From NCBI GenBank assembly GCA_903901015.1, contig CAIUPH010000014.1, positions 1 through 32,272 of the forward strand: a stretch of DNA of 32,272 nucleotides, written 5' to 3'. A model generated the notes under the pieces. It was not told where the DNA came from. It ran no database searches and saw nothing but the letters and a program-made list of their open reading frames with translations. A program made the position numbers and the translations under genes. The DNA comes from Candidatus Bathyarchaeota archaeon. Its GTDB lineage: Archaea; Thermoproteota; Bathyarchaeia; Bathyarchaeales; Bathycorpusculaceae. Shown here piece after piece: positions 5,517-18,175 of this stretch (position 1 is its first letter; the number at the start of each line of letters is the position of its first letter).

Positions 5517-6998
5517 TTAAGCCATCAGCAAATTGGATGTATCATTGTCTGCTGTGTAGACCCAAGTGTTTGTTTGTGGAGAAAAAGCTATACAATTCAA
5601 TTCTACGCGTCTGAAAATGTTTTCGTTGATTTGTCTTTTGGTCAGAAAGTTAGTCATTTCTTCTCTTGTCGGGGACTTTGCCGCTACAAATCTTGCTATA
5701 TCTTCAAGTTTGTGGAAGTTCATTTCGTCATTGATTCTGTTTAAGCTTTCCTGAACCTGAGATAGCAGGGTTGAAACGCTGGTTAGTTGCCCGTTCATGT
5801 TGTTGATTTGTGCATCTTTATAATTTGAGTTTTGCATTAATGCTTGGATTATGCCTTGGTTGCTTTTAGTTTCTTGCTCGAAGGTTTTTGATTTGTTTTC
5901 CAGTTCATCTAATTTCTGATGGTCTGCTATTGCATTGATTGAGAGGTATTTTTCAAACTGCCTGTAGCTTTTTCTAAGCTCTTCCACATCGAAATTCATG
6001 TATGCTTTTTCAGTGGGTGAGATTGAGTGTCCACAGAAATATTCTACCAAAGTGTTGTTCATGTTTGCTAACTTTAGGATGCTGATAAATGCTGTTCGTA
6101 AAGCGTGTGGTCTGACGGGGTTCATGTCAGAATTTTTTAGCTTCTCTTTAGAGACCAATCCAGCTTCAAACGCTGCCCTTCTCATGAAGCATTCAATTAG
6201 TAAGGGGTAAATTTTCTTAATCTTACTGCCATTTAGTTTCGTTGCAAATTCAATCGTAAAAAGAGGAGATTCGTTATCTAAAATCTCTCCATCTCTGACT
6301 CTTTGGGCTAAATACGGTTTTATTGCTTCGATCGCGTCGTTTCCAAGGAAAGTTTCGTATTCAACATTTTCTTTCTGCCTTATAATGTGCAAATACAGGG
6401 GTCTTTCGTTGGTTAATAGTCCATTTCTTACGTCACCATAAGTTAAGTTGCAAAGCTCATTTATGCTGATTCCACTTTGAAACAGAGTTAGTATTATTGC
6501 CCTATCTCGAAGGCAGGTAACAGCTTCGATTAATTTTTTTATTTCTGGAATCCTGATTGCTAATTTGAAATTTTCCTTCTTTTTCACTGCTTTGGGTAAT
6601 TTTACGATTAAGGGAAAGTTATTTTGTCTATAGAAGCCTTTGATGGCATGGCAATAACAGCAAGCAAGATTGCTGGATAATTGCTTTTTATTTTTTAGCC
6701 ATTTGTTGCCTCTGGCTTTTTGTATCTTGAGATATTCTGTTGGCAGCCATTGAAAGAACGTGCTTATTTTGTGCTCAGGTTCCCCCCTTAGCCTTGAACT
6801 TTTTTCCCGGTCTTTTTCAGCCTCATCTATAAGTTCTACTGGGGTGAGGGAAGTGAACTCCATAAAAGCGGTTAATGCTGAAAGGTAAACTCTTTTTGTC
6901 CCTTCGTTTTTGCCTTCAAGCCATCTTTTGACTTCATACTGCTCTAAAAGAAGTCGTTTTTTATTTTGCGCCTCATTAGAAGCTTTATTTTGCTCCAT
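5517..6998 (-). CDS. Tyrosine recombinase/integrase lacking the first catalytic Arg
   Basis: This 493-residue protein has an N-terminal SAM-like DNA-binding region (about 20-135), the catalytic domain (about 150-350) and a C-terminal coiled-coil/helical extension (about 355-440) beyond usual integrase length. Box II is intact: H298-A-L-R301, H324 in CGHS and nucleophile Y333 in EKAYMNF; K209 may be the beta-hairpin Lys. Box I, usually GLRxxEL, reads GISINEL (176-182), so the first catalytic Arg is replaced by Ser178. Either the family uses another residue or the enzyme is weakened. It would integrate or excise the element carrying the small genes at 4282-5258, and perhaps the DpnI-like and metallopeptidase genes. 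The att sites were not identified. Confidence 0.88.
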   Translation of the reverse strand: MEQNKASNEAQNKKRLLLEQYEVKRWLEGKNEGTKRVYLSALTAFMEFTSLTPVELIDEAEKDREKSSRLRGEPEHKISTFFQWLPTEYLKIQKARGNKWLKNKKQLSSNLACCYCHAIKGFYRQNNFPLIVKLPKAVKKKENFKLAIRIPEIKKLIEAVTCLRDRAIILTLFQSGISINELCNLTYGDVRNGLLTNERPLYLHIIRQKENVEYETFLGNDAIEAIKPYLAQRVRDGEILDNESPLFTIEFATKLNGSKIKKIYPLLIECFMRRAAFEAGLVSKEKLKNSDMNPVRPHALRTAFISILKLANMNNTLVEYFCGHSISPTEKAYMNFDVEELRKSYRQFEKYLSINAIADHQKLDELENKSKTFEQETKSNQGIIQALMQNSNYKDAQINNMNGQLTSVSTLLSQVQESLNRINDEMNFHKLEDIARFVAAKSPTREEMTNFLTKRQINENIFRRVELNCIAFSPQTNTWVYTADNDTSNLLMA

Positions 6999-10007: not shown

Positions 10008-11027
10008 TTATGCTTCGATAACCCTTGCGTCCTTGAGTACATCGACGTTCCCAATGCCCTTCACGACGCAACCCACTTCGAAATGCCTGACTTTGCGCTT
10101 ATCCAACTCGCTAAGCAAGTCGTCCACATTCTCTTTTCCGACGGCGATGAGCATTCCACCCGCCGTCTCCTTAGCTTCGCCTTGAAGAAGTGGATAGCCG
10201 AAAATCTCCGTTAAAACGGGAGTGCCCCGAATAACGGGTAGTTGGTCGATTATGATGTCAACTTTTCCCAGCGTAGCCATGTTTGCCGCGTGACCCTTCA
10301 AGCCAAAGCCAGTCACGTCAGTGGCAGCGTGGACGGGAACTTTCTGCATGGCTTCGGCTACAGGTTTGTTTGAAGTAATCATTCCGCTGATGGCTTCCTG
10401 GACTGCCGCATCAATCAAATCCTCTGGAACATCCTTTAGCAGTTCCCTACCGTCCTCTTCCTTGCGCAGGCGGTAAGCAGCCATCGCAGGCGCAATCCCC
10501 AAGGGCTTAGTCAAGAACAATCGGTCACCCACCTTCGCTCCTCGGGTATAAACAATTTTTTCGGGGTCGCCAACGCCTGTTGCTGCGCCGCCGATGATTG
10601 GCCAGGGATTGCGAATAGTGTGCCCACCCACAACGGGCGCATCCATTTCGCGGCAGAAATCCCCAAACCCCTTAAGCATCCCAACCGCCAACTCGTCGGG
10701 CATGTTCTCGGGAAACGCCATAATCGTCAGTACACTTGCGATTTTGGTAACTGCCAAAGCGTAGATGTCGCTTGTAACGTTGCTTCCAGCGATTCTGCCC
10801 TGTATTTCAGGTTCATCAACCATAGGCGTGAAGAAATCCAGCGTGTTCAAGATAGCGATGCCGTCAGCGATTTTAACGACGCTACTGTTTTCCCATGGAC
10901 CAGCCACAACATCCCCGCCGAAATCACCTGTCAAACCAGCTTTATCCAGCAGCTCTCCCAGCTGGTACTGGGGAAGCTTGCAGCTGCAACCGTGAATAGG
11001 AACAACCTTAGTTAACCTATAACTCAT
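10008..11027 (-). CDS. selD: Selenide, water dikinase (selenophosphate synthase)
   Basis: SelD makes selenophosphate from selenide and ATP. The 339-residue product has the N-terminal catalytic loop HGCSCKLP, with C14, C16 and K17 matching E. coli Cys17, Cys19 and Lys20. It also has the AIRS-family core (GSNVTSDIYALAVTKIASVL, VVGGHTIRNPWPIIGGAATG) and the second-domain motifs ATDVTGFGLKGHA and GGMLIAVG. Full length, with no internal TGA. The 81-base gap upstream holds a TATA-like TTTTTATATC (about 11062-11072) and a GAGGCG ribosome-binding site, so it may have its own promoter as well as reading from the dsrE-tusA-reductase genes. No selenocysteine machinery or SelU is visible here, so the acceptor is unknown. 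Confidence 0.95.
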   Translation of the reverse strand: MSYRLTKVVPIHGCSCKLPQYQLGELLDKAGLTGDFGGDVVAGPWENSSVVKIADGIAILNTLDFFTPMVDEPEIQGRIAGSNVTSDIYALAVTKIASVLTIMAFPENMPDELAVGMLKGFGDFCREMDAPVVGGHTIRNPWPIIGGAATGVGDPEKIVYTRGAKVGDRLFLTKPLGIAPAMAAYRLRKEEDGRELLKDVPEDLIDAAVQEAISGMITSNKPVAEAMQKVPVHAATDVTGFGLKGHAANMATLGKVDIIIDQLPVIRGTPVLTEIFGYPLLQGEAKETAGGMLIAVGKENVDDLLSELDKRKVRHFEVGCVVKGIGNVDVLKDARVIEA

Positions 11028-11108
11028 CTTTTTTACGCCTCAACTGTTAGACGATTTACTTTTAAGATATAAAAACGTTAAAAAAAACTAAAATGTGAAA
11101 GGGAAAAG

Positions 11109-12398
11109 TTACTGCTTTTTCCCTTGGATGATTTCGGAGAAAGCTTGGATTCTGGTTTTAATCTGTTCAGAATCGCCCATTGTGTAGTCTGTTTCGATTT
11201 TTATCATGGGTAAACCTTGGGCTTTTAACGCTCGCTCAACTTTTACTCCTTCAACGTTGTAGTCGTGGCAGTTTTGCAGTGTGTAGTAGATTACGCCGTC
11301 AACTTTGAATTGTTCTGCAAGTTGCTTGATGCTTTCAATTCTTCTGTCGTTTGGAGTGAAGCATGCACAGGGGATTTTTGAGTATTTTTCATCTATCGCC
11401 CAGAGCAAGTCCTTCAAACTTTCGCCTTTGGGTTCTATGGGGTCGTTGAAGTATCTTGTGCCAACGCAGCTTTCTTCAACCACCACTGTGGCGCCAGCTG
11501 ACTCGACGATACTGTGGACTTTCCAGTTAGGAACTGCCATCGGAGACCCTGAAATCATGATTCTCGGTGCATCTTTGCTCGCGACGCCTTTGCCTTGTTT
11601 TGCGCGTTGCTCCAGTTCTTCACATAGCTCATTCACTTTAGAGGTAAACCGTTGTACGTCATCCATGAAGCCTATTTGGTTGATAAGCAATCCGTCTAAA
11701 CCGCTGATTGGCGAAGGCGACGAAGCGCGTAGGTCCGATAGGCGTTTGAGGGCTTTGCGTTTGCCGTTTATCCGTTCAATGGCAGTTTTTAGTTTTTCAG
11801 CAGTTATCTTGTTGCCAGTGACTTTTTCCAACTCAGTTTTGAAGGCTTCCAACTCTTTGAACCAGAACTCTTTGCCTTGTTGGGTGTCTGGTTTATGGGG
11901 AACCTCAAGCACGTAGGTCGGGACAAGTTCTCTGAGGAGCTCGTAGACTTTCTTTTTGCCGTCGCACGTTGTTTCTCCGACGACAAGGTCGCTGGATTGG
12001 AAGTAAGGGCAGGTGCGGTTTAGTTTGAAACCGTAGAATGACTTGATTAGCGGGCAGAGGTTTCGTGGTAAAACAGCTTCTGCGTCGGGCACGGAAAAAT
12101 CTGCGCCTGCACATAAACCCACCATTGTAGCGTCTGCTGCATAGACAAGTTCTTCGGGTGCGTAGATGCAGAATGCGCCGATTACTTTCTTTCCTTTTGC
12201 TCTTTGGTCGTTGAGTTCTTTAATTATTAAGCCATGGACCTCAGAGACGACATAGTCGAAGTAATCCATCTTTTTAGGTCTGTTTTTTTGTGACAGGACG
12301 GCGCTTGTGTAGTATTGACCAAGACCGTTTAGGAGTAGATTATGTTTTTCAATATCCATTCCAAGGTTTTTCCACATTTTCACATATTTTTCTGCCAT
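11109..12398 (-). CDS. Double-cubane-cluster reductase (HgdB/2-hydroxyacyl-CoA dehydratase family)
   Basis: The product matches the family that includes 2-hydroxyglutaryl-CoA dehydratase and benzoyl-CoA reductase subunits and the single-subunit double-cubane proteins. Visible motifs are GAFCIYAPEELVYAADA, LCPLIKSFYG, CPYFQSSDLVVGETTCDGKK, a SCVGTRYF segment and TLQNCHDY, supplying Cys ligands for Fe-S clusters. Those enzymes drive low-potential reductions after electron transfer from an ATP-dependent activator; the activator gene is not in this window. ATG at 12398 is preferred; a GTG at 12407 is possible. The selD-tusA-dsrE neighbourhood suggests a redox role in selenium or sulfur handling rather than amino-acid fermentation. 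Substrate not deducible. Confidence 0.85.
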   Translation of the reverse strand: MAEKYVKMWKNLGMDIEKHNLLLNGLGQYYTSAVLSQKNRPKKMDYFDYVVSEVHGLIIKELNDQRAKGKKVIGAFCIYAPEELVYAADATMVGLCAGADFSVPDAEAVLPRNLCPLIKSFYGFKLNRTCPYFQSSDLVVGETTCDGKKKVYELLRELVPTYVLEVPHKPDTQQGKEFWFKELEAFKTELEKVTGNKITAEKLKTAIERINGKRKALKRLSDLRASSPSPISGLDGLLINQIGFMDDVQRFTSKVNELCEELEQRAKQGKGVASKDAPRIMISGSPMAVPNWKVHSIVESAGATVVVEESCVGTRYFNDPIEPKGESLKDLLWAIDEKYSKIPCACFTPNDRRIESIKQLAEQFKVDGVIYYTLQNCHDYNVEGVKVERALKAQGLPMIKIETDYTMGDSEQIKTRIQAFSEIIQGKKQ

Positions 12399-12480
12399 TG
12401 CAATCACATGCCTTTGGCTTCGGTATTAAAAACGGTGACTATTATAATTTTTGATATTACTTATTAGAAATTTTGCGGGG

Positions 12481-12705
12481 TTAGTGCTTTTTAACTAAAA
12501 CCTTAAACTCAACGCCAGACTTCGATGCCTCAACCACTTCATGCCCATTATTCCTAAGCCAACGCTGAACATTATCGAACTCGAGTTCGCCCTCGCCCGT
12601 AACCTCCAGCAGCTGCCCAACAGCCATCTCAGCAAGCTTTCGCTTCGTCAACGCCACGGGCATGGGGCACATTTTTCCTTTAACATCCAACTTTTCAAAG
12701 CTCAA
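12481..12705 (-). CDS. TusA/SirA-like sulfur (selenium) carrier
   Basis: This 74-residue protein has the TusA signature: DVKGKMCPMPVALTKRKL with the carrier Cys at C13 in the CPxP motif, then the ferredoxin-like strand-helix pattern ending VEFKVLVKK. TusA-fold proteins hold persulfide on this Cys and pass it on; the selenium-linked YedF proteins combine this fold with a DsrE-like domain. Here the two are separate neighbouring genes. The start is a TTG nine bases after the dsrE-like stop, implying coupled translation. The actual cargo (S or Se) is inferred from selD. Confidence 0.9.
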   Translation of the reverse strand: MSFEKLDVKGKMCPMPVALTKRKLAEMAVGQLLEVTGEGELEFDNVQRWLRNNGHEVVEASKSGVEFKVLVKKH

Positions 12706-12714
12706 GCAAAGTCA

Positions 12715-13065
12715 CTAGAACACTATAACCTTATCACTATTAACCGTCCAATCGACCAGTTCGTGAACAGACGCAATCTTAACCCCATCCATCAAGTCAG
12801 CCTGGGTTAAGCCGCGGGCATCAACGCAGACCACGCACGCTTTAACTTCGACGCCGCCTTGGATCAGGTTGTCCAGGAGTTGACCGTAGTTGATTAAGCC
12901 TTGAGCGGGTTTCTGGCCTTTCTTTGCGAGGTAGACTCCGTTTTCGAAGAGCCAGATTCTTACTTTGTGCCCTTCTACGTCGCAGGTTGCGGCGAATCTT
13001 AGGGCGGAGAGTGCGCGTTCTTTTGCGTAGGGTGCTTCGTTGATTATTATTGTGAAGGTTACCAT
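12715..13065 (-). CDS. DsrE/TusD-like protein
   Basis: This 116-residue protein has the DsrE/F fold order: an N-terminal strand MVTFTIIINEAPYAKERA, the VRIWLFENGVYLAKKG segment, then GVEVKACVVCVDARGL with C77 and C80. C77 corresponds to the active Cys position of TusD/DsrE, which accepts persulfide from TusA. The end ADLMDGVKIASVHELVDWT is typical of the family. First gene of the minus-strand set, with ATG at 13065 and the shared regulatory gap to lysR upstream. Probable partner of the adjacent TusA-like carrier. Confidence 0.88.
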   Translation of the reverse strand: MVTFTIIINEAPYAKERALSALRFAATCDVEGHKVRIWLFENGVYLAKKGQKPAQGLINYGQLLDNLIQGGVEVKACVVCVDARGLTQADLMDGVKIASVHELVDWTVNSDKVIVF

Positions 13066-13183
13066 GGTTTATGCCTCAAATATACTGATAGATATTATTA
13101 AAAAAACTGATATAAGCGTTTTCTAAAGCACAAAGCAAATATCACAACAAACCCCTAAGATGCATACGACAGGGGCACAGCAC
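13066..13183. promoter_or_regulatory. Divergent regulatory gap between dsrE-like and lysR genes
   Basis: This 118-base AT-rich gap carries two ACTGATA words (near 13084 and 13107) around an AT tract (GATATTATTAAAAAAAC). LysR regulators commonly bind such divergent gaps at T-N11-A sites; the ATATACTGATAGATAT stretch is the best candidate operator. This placement suggests control of both lysR itself and the reductase/selD genes. Confidence 0.45.
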
Positions 13184-14116
13184 ATGGAAACTATACGTTT
13201 CGATTACCTCAACACCTTTCTAACAGTCGCTAGAACACGCAGTTTCTCAGTGGCAGCTAAAGAACTTAAAACCAGCCAGGGCACCGTAAGCCACCATGTA
13301 GCCGCCCTAGAAACCTACTTTGACGCTGAATTATTCAAACGCTCAGCCAACGGCGTAGAACTCACCGACGAGGGCGCCACACTTAAGGAAGCCGCCGAAA
13401 AAATTCTCCAGCAAGCCCAAGATACAAAAGCAAAAATTTCAACCGCCAAACTCAACTTGGCAGGAACCATAAAAATCGCTGCAAGCTCAATACCCGGCGA
13501 ACACTTAATCCCCAGCTTAATCTCTGGATTCCAAAAAAAGCATCCAGACGTGAAATTTAGAGTAAAAGCTGAAGACAGCTTAACCAGCCTTGGCATCCTG
13601 CAAACCAACGACGCCGATTTCGCTGCGGTTGGCACCACTCAGGGGTTTGAAGAAAAATTCGATTTCCTCCAAATCGGCGAAGAACAATTAGTCCTTATCG
13701 TGCCCTGCAGCCATGGGTTAGCCAAGCATAAATCGGTTAAACTCAGTGAAATCCTCAAGTACCCCTTCGTTAACCGCGAAGAAACTTCTGGTACACGATT
13801 GGAAATCGAGCGTCTACTTGAAAAAAACGGGGTCCTTCCTCAGAAGTTGCAGGTTGCACTGGAGCTTGGAAGCACCGAATCTGTAATAACAGCTATTTCA
13901 GAAGGCAGAGGCACAAGCATAATCTCTTCAATAGCGGCTACAAAAGCTCAAGCTGCAGGTCTGATAAAAATAGTCAAAATCCAAGAAGCAGAAACCCCCC
14001 GAAAACTCTACATCGTAAGACCCAAAAGACCGTTGCTAAAGATTTCTGAGGCTTTCTGGGACTTCTGCAAAGGCTACCGATTTAAAAACGAAGCCATCTC
14101 ATGTTCAACGGGTTAA
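13184..14116 (+). CDS. LysR-type transcriptional regulator of the selenium/reductase cassette
   Basis: Residues 1-65 form the LysR winged helix (FDYLNTFLTVARTRSFSVAA then SQGTVSHHVAALETYF). The periplasmic-binding-like sensor follows, beginning GTIKIAASSIPGEHLIPSLI and ending near KLYIVRPKRPLL. The sensor opening with IPGEHLIP resembles the CysL/YwfK group and the selenium-metabolism-associated LysR proteins. ATG at 13184 (METIRFDYLNTF) is preferred to 13160 because it fits the family N-terminus; length about 310 residues. Divergent from dsrE, tusA, reductase and selD, so probably their regulator. Overlaps the convergent Rieske gene by four bases. LysR proteins are uncommon in archaea, consistent with transfer from bacteria. 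Confidence 0.92.
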   Translation: METIRFDYLNTFLTVARTRSFSVAAKELKTSQGTVSHHVAALETYFDAELFKRSANGVELTDEGATLKEAAEKILQQAQDTKAKISTAKLNLAGTIKIAASSIPGEHLIPSLISGFQKKHPDVKFRVKAEDSLTSLGILQTNDADFAAVGTTQGFEEKFDFLQIGEEQLVLIVPCSHGLAKHKSVKLSEILKYPFVNREETSGTRLEIERLLEKNGVLPQKLQVALELGSTESVITAISEGRGTSIISSIAATKAQAAGLIKIVKIQEAETPRKLYIVRPKRPLLKISEAFWDFCKGYRFKNEAISCSTG

Positions 14117-14448
14117 GAGTCGCTTGTTTCATCGTTTAGTTTAACCCAGATTTTCCCCGACTCAATCTTCCACTCAAACTGGTTCAGCTTCAACTCTGGG
14201 TCTTCCTCGTATTCGCCGTTTTCCAAGCTGAAACGCCAATCGTGGCAAGGACAAACAATCACCAATCCGTCGAGCGTGCCGCCGGATAGGGCGCAGGCTT
14301 GGTGTGGACAGCGGTTGTCTATGGCGAAGATTTTGCCCTGCTGTTTAATCAGCAAAACTGGGGTGCCATTCGCGGATACACGTTTCATCTTGCCTTCCTG
14401 CAACTCTTTTTCATCCAAAACAGATACAAATTCCTCTTGATTTTCCAT
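14113..14448 (-). CDS. Rieske-type [2Fe-2S] ferredoxin
   Basis: This 111-residue soluble protein has the Rieske ligands C47-P-H49 (RCPHQACALSGG) and C66-P-C-H69 (VCPCHDWRF), and a beta-rich frame close to dioxygenase-type Rieske ferredoxins and the small NirD-like subunit. No membrane anchor. It likely shuttles electrons to an unidentified oxidoreductase. Its stop overlaps the lysR stop by four bases. It is not in the same operon as the reductase genes, but its position next to their regulator may be meaningful. Confidence 0.9.
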   Translation of the reverse strand: MENQEEFVSVLDEKELQEGKMKRVSANGTPVLLIKQQGKIFAIDNRCPHQACALSGGTLDGLVIVCPCHDWRFSLENGEYEEDPELKLNQFEWKIESGKIWVKLNDETSDS

Positions 14449-17512: not shown

Positions 17513-18175
17513 CTATTGTATTCCGCAAGCTTCCGCTGGAGTTTTACCGTTCAAACCTTCATGAGGTCGAATATAATTGTGGTAAAGTTGGTAACCTGTT
17601 AGAACAGTTGTGCGTTTCTGTTTTAATCCCCTCATGGTCTTTTCGCGGTCTCTGATTTCACCGTTTACCCTTTCCATCTTATTGTTATTGTGTACCTTGC
17701 CGGTGAAGGGTATTTTGCGGATATGTTTAGTTCCATCAAACACTTGCTCGCAAGCCACAGAATAAGAAGACAATCCATCAGTAACCAGGGTTTTTGGTTG
17801 TTTACCCATTAATCGTTTAGCTCTAAAGAACAACGCTATAGCATCGTGTTTCTCTTTTGTTTCCGCTACCTCTTGAGCTATCCAAAAGCGTGTTTGGGTG
17901 TCCATCATTGCGAAAAGATACTTCATGTTTCCGCCGATTTTTATGTAAATTTCATTAGCACAGAAAGTATCTGAAACGTTAGGTTTGATGTTTTCAGTGT
18001 AGGCTTTCATTAAGCGTATGTATTTCTTTATCCAATTCAAGATTGTTCAATAAGATACTTTTACACCCATAATTTCTAAGGCGCTCATGGTGTTTCTGAG
18101 ACTTTTAGGCTTTCTAAGAATTCCTGCGTTAATTCGGTAGTCATATGCATTCCTCGAATTATATTTTAGCGTAAA
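17513..18175 (-). pseudogene. Decayed DDE transposase (IS6-like), internal TGA and 5'-truncated
   Basis: The open part 17513-18040 encodes the catalytic half: FCANEIYIKIGG, KTLVTDGLSSY, NNNKMERVNGEIRDREKTM and YHNYIRPHEGLNG. In-frame sequence upstream continues as a transposase N-terminus (YNSRNAYDYRINAGILRKP, SALEIMGVKVSY, TILNWIKKYI) but is cut by a TGA at 18047-18049 inside the helix-turn-helix. The frame has no start before it meets the tRNA CCA end. The usual first catalytic Asp (ADE) appears as Asn (ANE), a further sign of decay. The second Asp and the Glu are present. No terminal inverted repeats were found. Confidence 0.8.

Follow-up and report, generated by a model that had tools for sequence, protein, structure and literature searches.

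A selD-linked double-cubane reductase cassette as a candidate selenium supply module in Bathyarchaeia

Genes and candidate operators of the cassette

The window that we analyzed is a stretch of 32,272 nucleotides (positions 1-32,272 of contig CAIUPH010000014.1) from a Bathyarchaeota metagenome-assembled genome (MAG) of 2.05 Mb and 97% completeness, which we refer to as G000. Its minus strand carries, in this order, dsrE, tusA, a gene encoding a double-cubane-cluster protein (DCCP) and selD, and a gene for a LysR-type regulator diverges from dsrE. A first-pass annotation of this DNA had proposed that the five genes form a cassette for handling selenium or sulfur, and each of them proved to be open in the described arrangement. 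The comparison set comprised 91 genomes of the family, with the window's own genus designated g1 (32 genomes), its sister genus g17 and a distant outgroup represented by G087; all are MAGs with gaps, and the named genomes that carry relatives of the window genes are Candidatus Bathyarchaeota. NCBIfam models were applied at cut-offs of 125 (TIGR00476), 291 (PRK14105), 350 (NF040772), 250 (NF040786) and 110 bits (TIGR03527).

The selD gene (10008-11027, minus strand) encodes a selenophosphate synthetase that passes both curated models for this enzyme, TIGR00476 with 231.7 bits and PRK14105 with 339.4 bits, and scores 36.7 bits against the model for sulfur-type SelD, for which the cut-off is 250. 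Its catalytic cysteine and lysine, which had been pointed out from the sequence, lie in an HG-C14-S-C16-K17 loop that is invariant in relatives. Upstream of selD, the DCCP gene (11109-12407, minus strand, with a conserved start at the ATG at 12398) encodes an HgdB-type anaerobic reductase that far exceeds the cut-off of NF040772 (506.5 bits) and has the DCCP of Carboxydothermus hydrogenoformans as its closest match in the PDB (7yyl/6eno, E 3e-147). The six ligands of the [8Fe-9S] cluster of BzdN are C36, C73, C100, C263, C293 and C327 (PMC11971306). The first-pass annotation had noted HgdB-type cysteine motifs; C80, C118, C148, C314, C347/C349 and C380 of the window protein align with these ligands, and the cluster cysteines are invariant across 12 archaeal DCCPs. 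Proteins of this family are ATP-driven, low-potential reductases of small molecules with an open natural substrate, and a single bridging sulfur joins the two halves of their double cubane (PMC11971306). Close to the cluster, positions 138-139 (numbering of the window protein) are Cys-Cys (FQCCD) in the genus that uses selenocysteine (Sec) and SS, TS or VS in g1.

The two small genes upstream of the DCCP gene encode carriers, namely a TusA-like protein (12481-12705, minus strand; PF01206, 68.7 bits) and a DsrE/TusD-like protein (12715-13065, minus strand; PF02635, 83.6 bits). Alignments confirmed the carrier cysteine of TusA, C13 within a CPxP motif, as invariant in relatives and the DsrE cysteines C77 and C80 as invariant in 12 orthologues. 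Both proteins score above the Pfam gathering thresholds yet below every NCBIfam equivalog cut-off. The bacterial protein YedF, which joins such domains in one chain, is defined by TIGR03527, and we rejected membership in that family because the window genes are separate and TusA scores 35.2 bits; the comparison with YedF therefore concerns how the pair would work. A true fused YedF (195.8 bits) does adjoin a DCCP gene and an activator gene in a Nautiliaceae bacterium. For the divergent regulator (13160-14116, plus strand, with a likely start at METIRF, codon 9), assignment to the selenium-associated subfamily, here called LysR_Sec, was upheld by a marginal score of 250.6 bits against NF040786, and its orthologues in other cassettes range from 231 to 262 bits, with some under the cut-off. 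Ratios of nonsynonymous to synonymous variation (pN/pS) of 0.10-0.32 across dsrE, tusA, the DCCP gene and selD indicate that all four are under purifying selection.

The intergenic region between the LysR gene and dsrE contains a conserved palindrome, TAATA-N5-TATTA, at about -20 relative to dsrE. In the window, this candidate LysR_Sec operator reads TAATA-ATATC-TATCA (13086-13100, minus strand) and lies 20 bp upstream of the dsrE ATG. An alignment of nine such intergenic regions places a TATA-box-like element, TTATAT (13110-13115, minus strand), at -50 of dsrE and 9 bp upstream of the palindrome. A motif scan identified a second candidate operator, TAATAAGTAATATCA (12452-12466, minus strand), at a distance of 53 bp from the DCCP start codon on its upstream side. 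The window as a whole holds five matches against 0.67 expected, and three of the five fall within the two intergenic gaps of the cassette. Matches were defined by at most one mismatch, and the expectation for dsrE loci was obtained from shuffles. Of the 14 loci in which a LysR_Sec gene lies next to dsrE, 12 have the palindrome at -18 to -28 (0.48 expected), and the other two have two mismatches. It preceded dsrE in 2 of 14 loci that have no adjacent LysR gene, and one of these, L104, comes from a group with decaying sites. Matches were also found before the DCCP gene in 5 of 12 loci (0.52 expected), where the best sites of 10 of the 12 lie at -50 to -56, and before yedE in 2 of 3 loci. None was found before selD, either in the 12 cassettes or at nine stand-alone selD genes. 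The simplest reading of this distribution is that LysR_Sec would bind TAATA-N5-TATTA and thereby control dsrE-tusA and DCCP-selD. Because the palindrome lies just below the TATA box and near the expected start site, its position would suit a repressor, by analogy with the LysR protein HrsM of Methanococcus maripaludis, which binds to an intergenic region as a selenium-dependent repressor (PMC11097638) and for which selenophosphate has been proposed as the signal (PMC5322559, PMC11097638).

Linkage and co-occurrence across the family

A selD gene above the cut-off was detected in 27 of the 91 genomes, which comprise 22 of g1, four of g17 and one of a further genus, g32. Wherever the cassette-type DCCP gene occurs it adjoins selD (12 of 12 cases, in two genera), and these 12 cassettes share the order dsrE-tusA-DCCP-(activator)-selD. 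Conservation of this order in g1 and in a second genus argues against linkage by chance; the first-pass annotation had named a lack of conserved linkage as one outcome that would undo its proposal. The carriers and the synthetase also occur together at the level of genomes: 25 genomes contain both dsrE and selD, three contain dsrE only, two contain selD only and 61 contain neither, and the corresponding numbers within g1 are 21, three, one and seven. These counts come from related, phylogenetically non-independent genomes, so Fisher values on them are indicative only. In four genomes (G009, G013, G033 and G035), dsrE-tusA and selD reside at separate mid-contig loci, which indicates that their co-occurrence is not merely a matter of physical linkage. 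The genes adjacent to unlinked dsrE-tusA loci encode flippase-like proteins and M48 peptidases, and no enzyme of selenium metabolism was found among them. Two of these assemblies each contain two full selD genes (G033, contigs C51 and C60; G035, contigs C26 and C71), possibly from strain mixing (contamination 4-5%). LysR_Sec likewise follows selD, with 15 of its 16 occurrences in the family in selD-containing genomes and an exception, G029, that scores 196.7 bits.

The two genera differ in how much surrounds this core. In most cases the g1 locus retains just LysR, dsrE, tusA, DCCP and selD, and the g17 locus adds a split YedE, a second TusA, a DUF3343 selenium/sulfur carrier (PF11823), a YjeF-C-like kinase and an activator of the acyl-CoA-dehydratase type. 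YedE, a putative selenium transporter, is divided into two half-length genes at L028:1855-2634, L030, L032 and L054. The kinase is a divergent relative of YjeF-C (NAD(P)HX dehydratase) that adjoins DUF3343 at L028:3344-4276, L054:1326-2192 and L091:3728-4600 and possibly represents a new selenium-associated kinase family. One g1 genome, G024, retains YedE, DUF3343 and the kinase without DCCP.

DCCP-type proteins extend well beyond the cassette. Matches of this type occur in 59 of the 91 genomes, mostly belonging to a second locus that is present with or without selD, and matches of at least 480 bits occur in 15. Copies at other places in the genomes G010, G021 and G036 group in a divergent clade of their own, apart from the cassette type.

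SelD and known selenium acceptors in genus g1

Comparison of the two genera revealed a difference in the active site of SelD. The selD genes of g17 contain an in-frame TGA at the position of window C14, which yields HG-U-SCK rather than HG-C-SCK, and the window SelD is 67-72% identical to these Sec-containing proteins. The g17 genomes also encode SepSecS and tRNA-Sec. The outgroup genome G087 also encodes a Sec-SelD, beside a PSTK-SelB fusion of 734 amino acids (L029:5015-7219), SepSecS and a tRNA-Sec-like gene. This arrangement is in line with Sec being ancestral, and the tree leaves the direction of change unproven. The use of Sec in Bathyarchaeota, including the PSTK-SelB fusion, is already on record (PMC9499178).

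The first-pass annotation had noted that no genes for Sec or for SelU are visible in the window, and this observation was borne out across g1. Neither SepSecS nor a tRNA-Sec above the gathering score was found in any of its 32 genomes by searches that succeed in the sister genus, and the best tRNA-Sec-like match in G000 has 40.8 bits, which is below gathering. SelU/YbbB (TIGR03167) was absent from all 91 genomes, with positive controls in Methanocaldococcus jannaschii and E. coli, and YqeB (TIGR03309), a marker of selenium-dependent molybdenum hydroxylases, was absent from the 32 genomes of g1. We conclude that the SelD of g1 is an orphan as Haft and Self use the term (PMC2276186), since Sec machinery, SelU and YqeB were not found, and that it lacks the molybdenum hydroxylase signature. 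Because linkage is conserved and no Sec system was found in g1, neither of the two outcomes that the first-pass annotation had set against its own proposal, a lack of conserved linkage and a full Sec system elsewhere in the genome, was observed. We also considered the neighbors of selD in DCCP-free genomes as possible acceptors and rejected them for want of a consistent partner; they encode a DnaG primase, a TrmB-like regulator and, as judged by eye from the sequence, a predicted secreted protein, a glyoxalase-like hydrolase and an alcohol dehydrogenase-like protein.

Proposed function, alternatives and related systems

Based on these findings, we propose that the cassette is a selenium-responsive supply operon of Bathyarchaeia for the scavenging, reduction and activation of selenium, a reading to which we assign a probability of roughly 0.58. 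DsrE and TusA would act like a split YedF and take up selenium, or a mixture of selenium and sulfur, as a cysteine-bound perselenide. That the pair carries selenium in bound form is most likely, because its members correspond to the halves of bacterial YedF and because tusA and tusD transcripts of M. maripaludis increase by 4.5-4.6 log2 upon selenium depletion; the authors of that study regarded TusAD as a thiouridylation system (PMC11097638). DCCP, energized in an ATP-dependent manner by an activator encoded elsewhere in the genome, would then supply electrons of very low potential that convert the scavenged selenium to selenide, and SelD would convert selenide to selenophosphate. A supply of reduced selenium to SelD by the carriers and the reductase is plausible. 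LysR_Sec would read the selenium status, perhaps with selenophosphate as its signal, and would control dsrE-tusA and DCCP-selD through the TAATA-N5-TATTA operators near their promoters. In the sister genus, this selenophosphate would feed Sec synthesis. In g1, where the Sec system would have been lost or never present, the Cys-containing SelD would serve another acceptor, which would be neither SelU nor a molybdenum hydroxylase of the YqeB type. We advance more tentatively, at somewhat less than even odds, the idea that g1 has a fourth use of selenophosphate, beyond selenocysteine, selenouridine and the YqeB-type molybdenum hydroxylase, which would be fed by this LysR-regulated module of split YedF and double-cubane reductase and would have followed the change from Sec to Cys in SelD and the loss of Sec decoding.

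Several observations weigh against a selenium supply operon. Members of the TusA and DsrE families are mostly sulfur carriers. The cassette-type DCCP is present in just 8 of the 22 selD-positive genomes of g1 and absent from 14, which indicates that the proposed reduction step is not universal and that SelD must serve another use. No selenophosphate acceptor was identified among the systems and selD neighbors examined in g1. A set of genes similar to the cassette, which encodes a DUF3343-like carrier, a YjeF-C-like kinase, TusA, XdhC, DCCP and an activator, occurs in Candidatus Gagatemarchaeum stordalenia (L091:3182-10208) in an assembly in which no true selD was found; this suggests either a role in sulfur metabolism or an incomplete assembly, and on this basis the gene set may also serve sulfur. 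Finally, no ATP-dependent activator adjoins DCCP in the window cassette. The sole two activators of G000 are located at C75:7170-8818 beside another DCCP-like gene, and in nearly all g1 genomes the only activators are such a tandem pair at the second DCCP-like locus, with a third in G019, so we rejected a dedicated cassette activator in g1. Supply of the activator from that locus is a weak point of our proposal. The second locus itself, at L056:7131-10169 on contig C75 of G000, consists of a DCCP-like gene, widespread in the family, and two activator genes in tandem.

A rival reading is a sulfur pathway in which DsrE, TusA and DCCP would act on sulfane sulfur or a sulfur compound and SelD of g1 would have turned to thiophosphate chemistry, as has been suggested for SelD-like proteins in archaea that reduce sulfur. 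The classical role of the carriers, the similar set without selD in Gagatemarchaeum, the lack in g1 of every known selenium acceptor system that we tested and the thiouridylation reading of TusAD in M. maripaludis (PMC11097638) all favor such a pathway. However, SelD scores as a bona fide selenophosphate synthetase and far below the sulfur-type cut-off, it is closely similar to the Sec-SelD of a Sec-decoding sister genus, the LysR protein belongs to the selenium subfamily and dsrE tracks selD across genomes, which together make a sulfur pathway unlikely. Another alternative, which we regard as less probable still, is that SelD and its supply genes persist unused after loss of a Sec system or that a divergent Sec system was missed. 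The confinement of the Sec/Cys difference to one residue, the Sec-type SelD of the distant outgroup and the gaps inherent in MAGs are compatible with such a leftover. Against it, SelD has a pN/pS of 0.1-0.17 with synonymous sites near saturation, selD has been kept in 22 of the 32 g1 genomes compared with none for SepSecS or for tRNA-Sec above the gathering score, and the palindrome-bearing promoters are conserved; no hidden Sec system was found in G000 by the SepSecS and tRNA-Sec models that work in the sister genus. The first-pass annotation had also entertained the reductase itself as the selenium-dependent enzyme; selenophosphate would then deliver selenium into its active site. The strict adjacency of DCCP and selD in the 12 cassettes would agree with that idea, and the single bridging sulfur of the double cubane (PMC11971306) could in principle be a selenium position. 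This part of the annotation was not supported as the main reading: the 14 selD-positive g1 genomes that lack the cassette-type DCCP rule it out as the sole acceptor, and the characterized C. hydrogenoformans protein is described with an [8Fe-9S] cluster, which leaves a selenium-containing DCCP very improbable.

The selenium supply operon that we favor has counterparts among known systems. Bacterial selenium operons such as that of Slackia heliotrinireducens combine TusA and DsrE domains, an HgdB-type protein, LysR_Se and SelD (PMC5322559), and their YedE, DUF3343 and activator recur in the sister-genus cassettes. In contrast, the present cassette is archaeal, its TusA and DsrE are separate, g1 lacks Sec genes and the window copy lacks DUF3343, YedE and the activator. 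In Slackia, STRING ranks a gene for 2-hydroxyglutaryl-CoA dehydratase first among the associations of LysR_Se (PMC5322559), and the gene for a dicubane protein appears among the putative selenium genes of bacteria (PMC10418091). Because this link between HgdB-type proteins and selenium genes is already known in bacteria, the cassette is a new archaeal variant rather than a new kind of system; what is new is its split carriers in an archaeon, the retention of the cassette with a Cys-containing SelD in g1, for which no known selenium acceptor was found, and the predicted operator. The C. hydrogenoformans DCCP and its reductase (6eno, 7yyl) share full-length homology and the cluster cysteines with the window protein, whereas the latter adjoins selD and has no adjacent partner activator. 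Orphan selD genes associated with molybdenum hydroxylases (PMC2276186) similarly occur without Sec or selenouridine but differ by the YqeB marker that g1 lacks. M. maripaludis shares an archaeal LysR protein of the selenium type and TusA/TusD genes that respond to selenium, although HrsM controls hydrogenase isogenes there in a Sec-using methanogen (PMC11097638). Type I mlp clusters also tie DCCP to selenium metabolism in anaerobes (PMC10418091), and they differ from the window cassette in having methyltransferases and a corrinoid protein. In the Sec-using Bathyarchaeon G060, a second DCCP gene adjoins genes for a corrinoid protein, an MtaA/CmuA-like methyltransferase and a sugar-type ABC transporter; this cluster (L116:4842-9267, contig C26) resembles bacterial mlp clusters of type I, for which a role in the use of methyl-selenide has been proposed.

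The donor of selenium to SelD and the form in which it is delivered are still open questions (PMC13188914), and the cassette joins the supply of selenium to SelD with the natural role of double-cubane reductases in archaea. It also suggests why TusA and TusD increase in selenium-starved M. maripaludis, an effect so far unexplained, points to g1 as a lineage that keeps an apparently active SelD although no known selenium acceptor was found there, and offers a predicted LysR_Sec operator.

Convergent with the LysR gene lies a gene for a Rieske [2Fe-2S] ferredoxin (14113-14448, minus strand; PF00355, 78.7 bits), which the first-pass annotation had overlooked along with the operator-like palindromes and the lack of an activator at the locus. 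The Rieske gene adjoins LysR in several cassettes of both genera and is thus a conserved neighbor of the cassette, with an uncertain role. The flanks of the region contain a gene for a XerA-like tyrosine recombinase that carries a long extension at its C terminus (5517-6998) and an open reading frame that reads like a DDE transposase (17513-18040).

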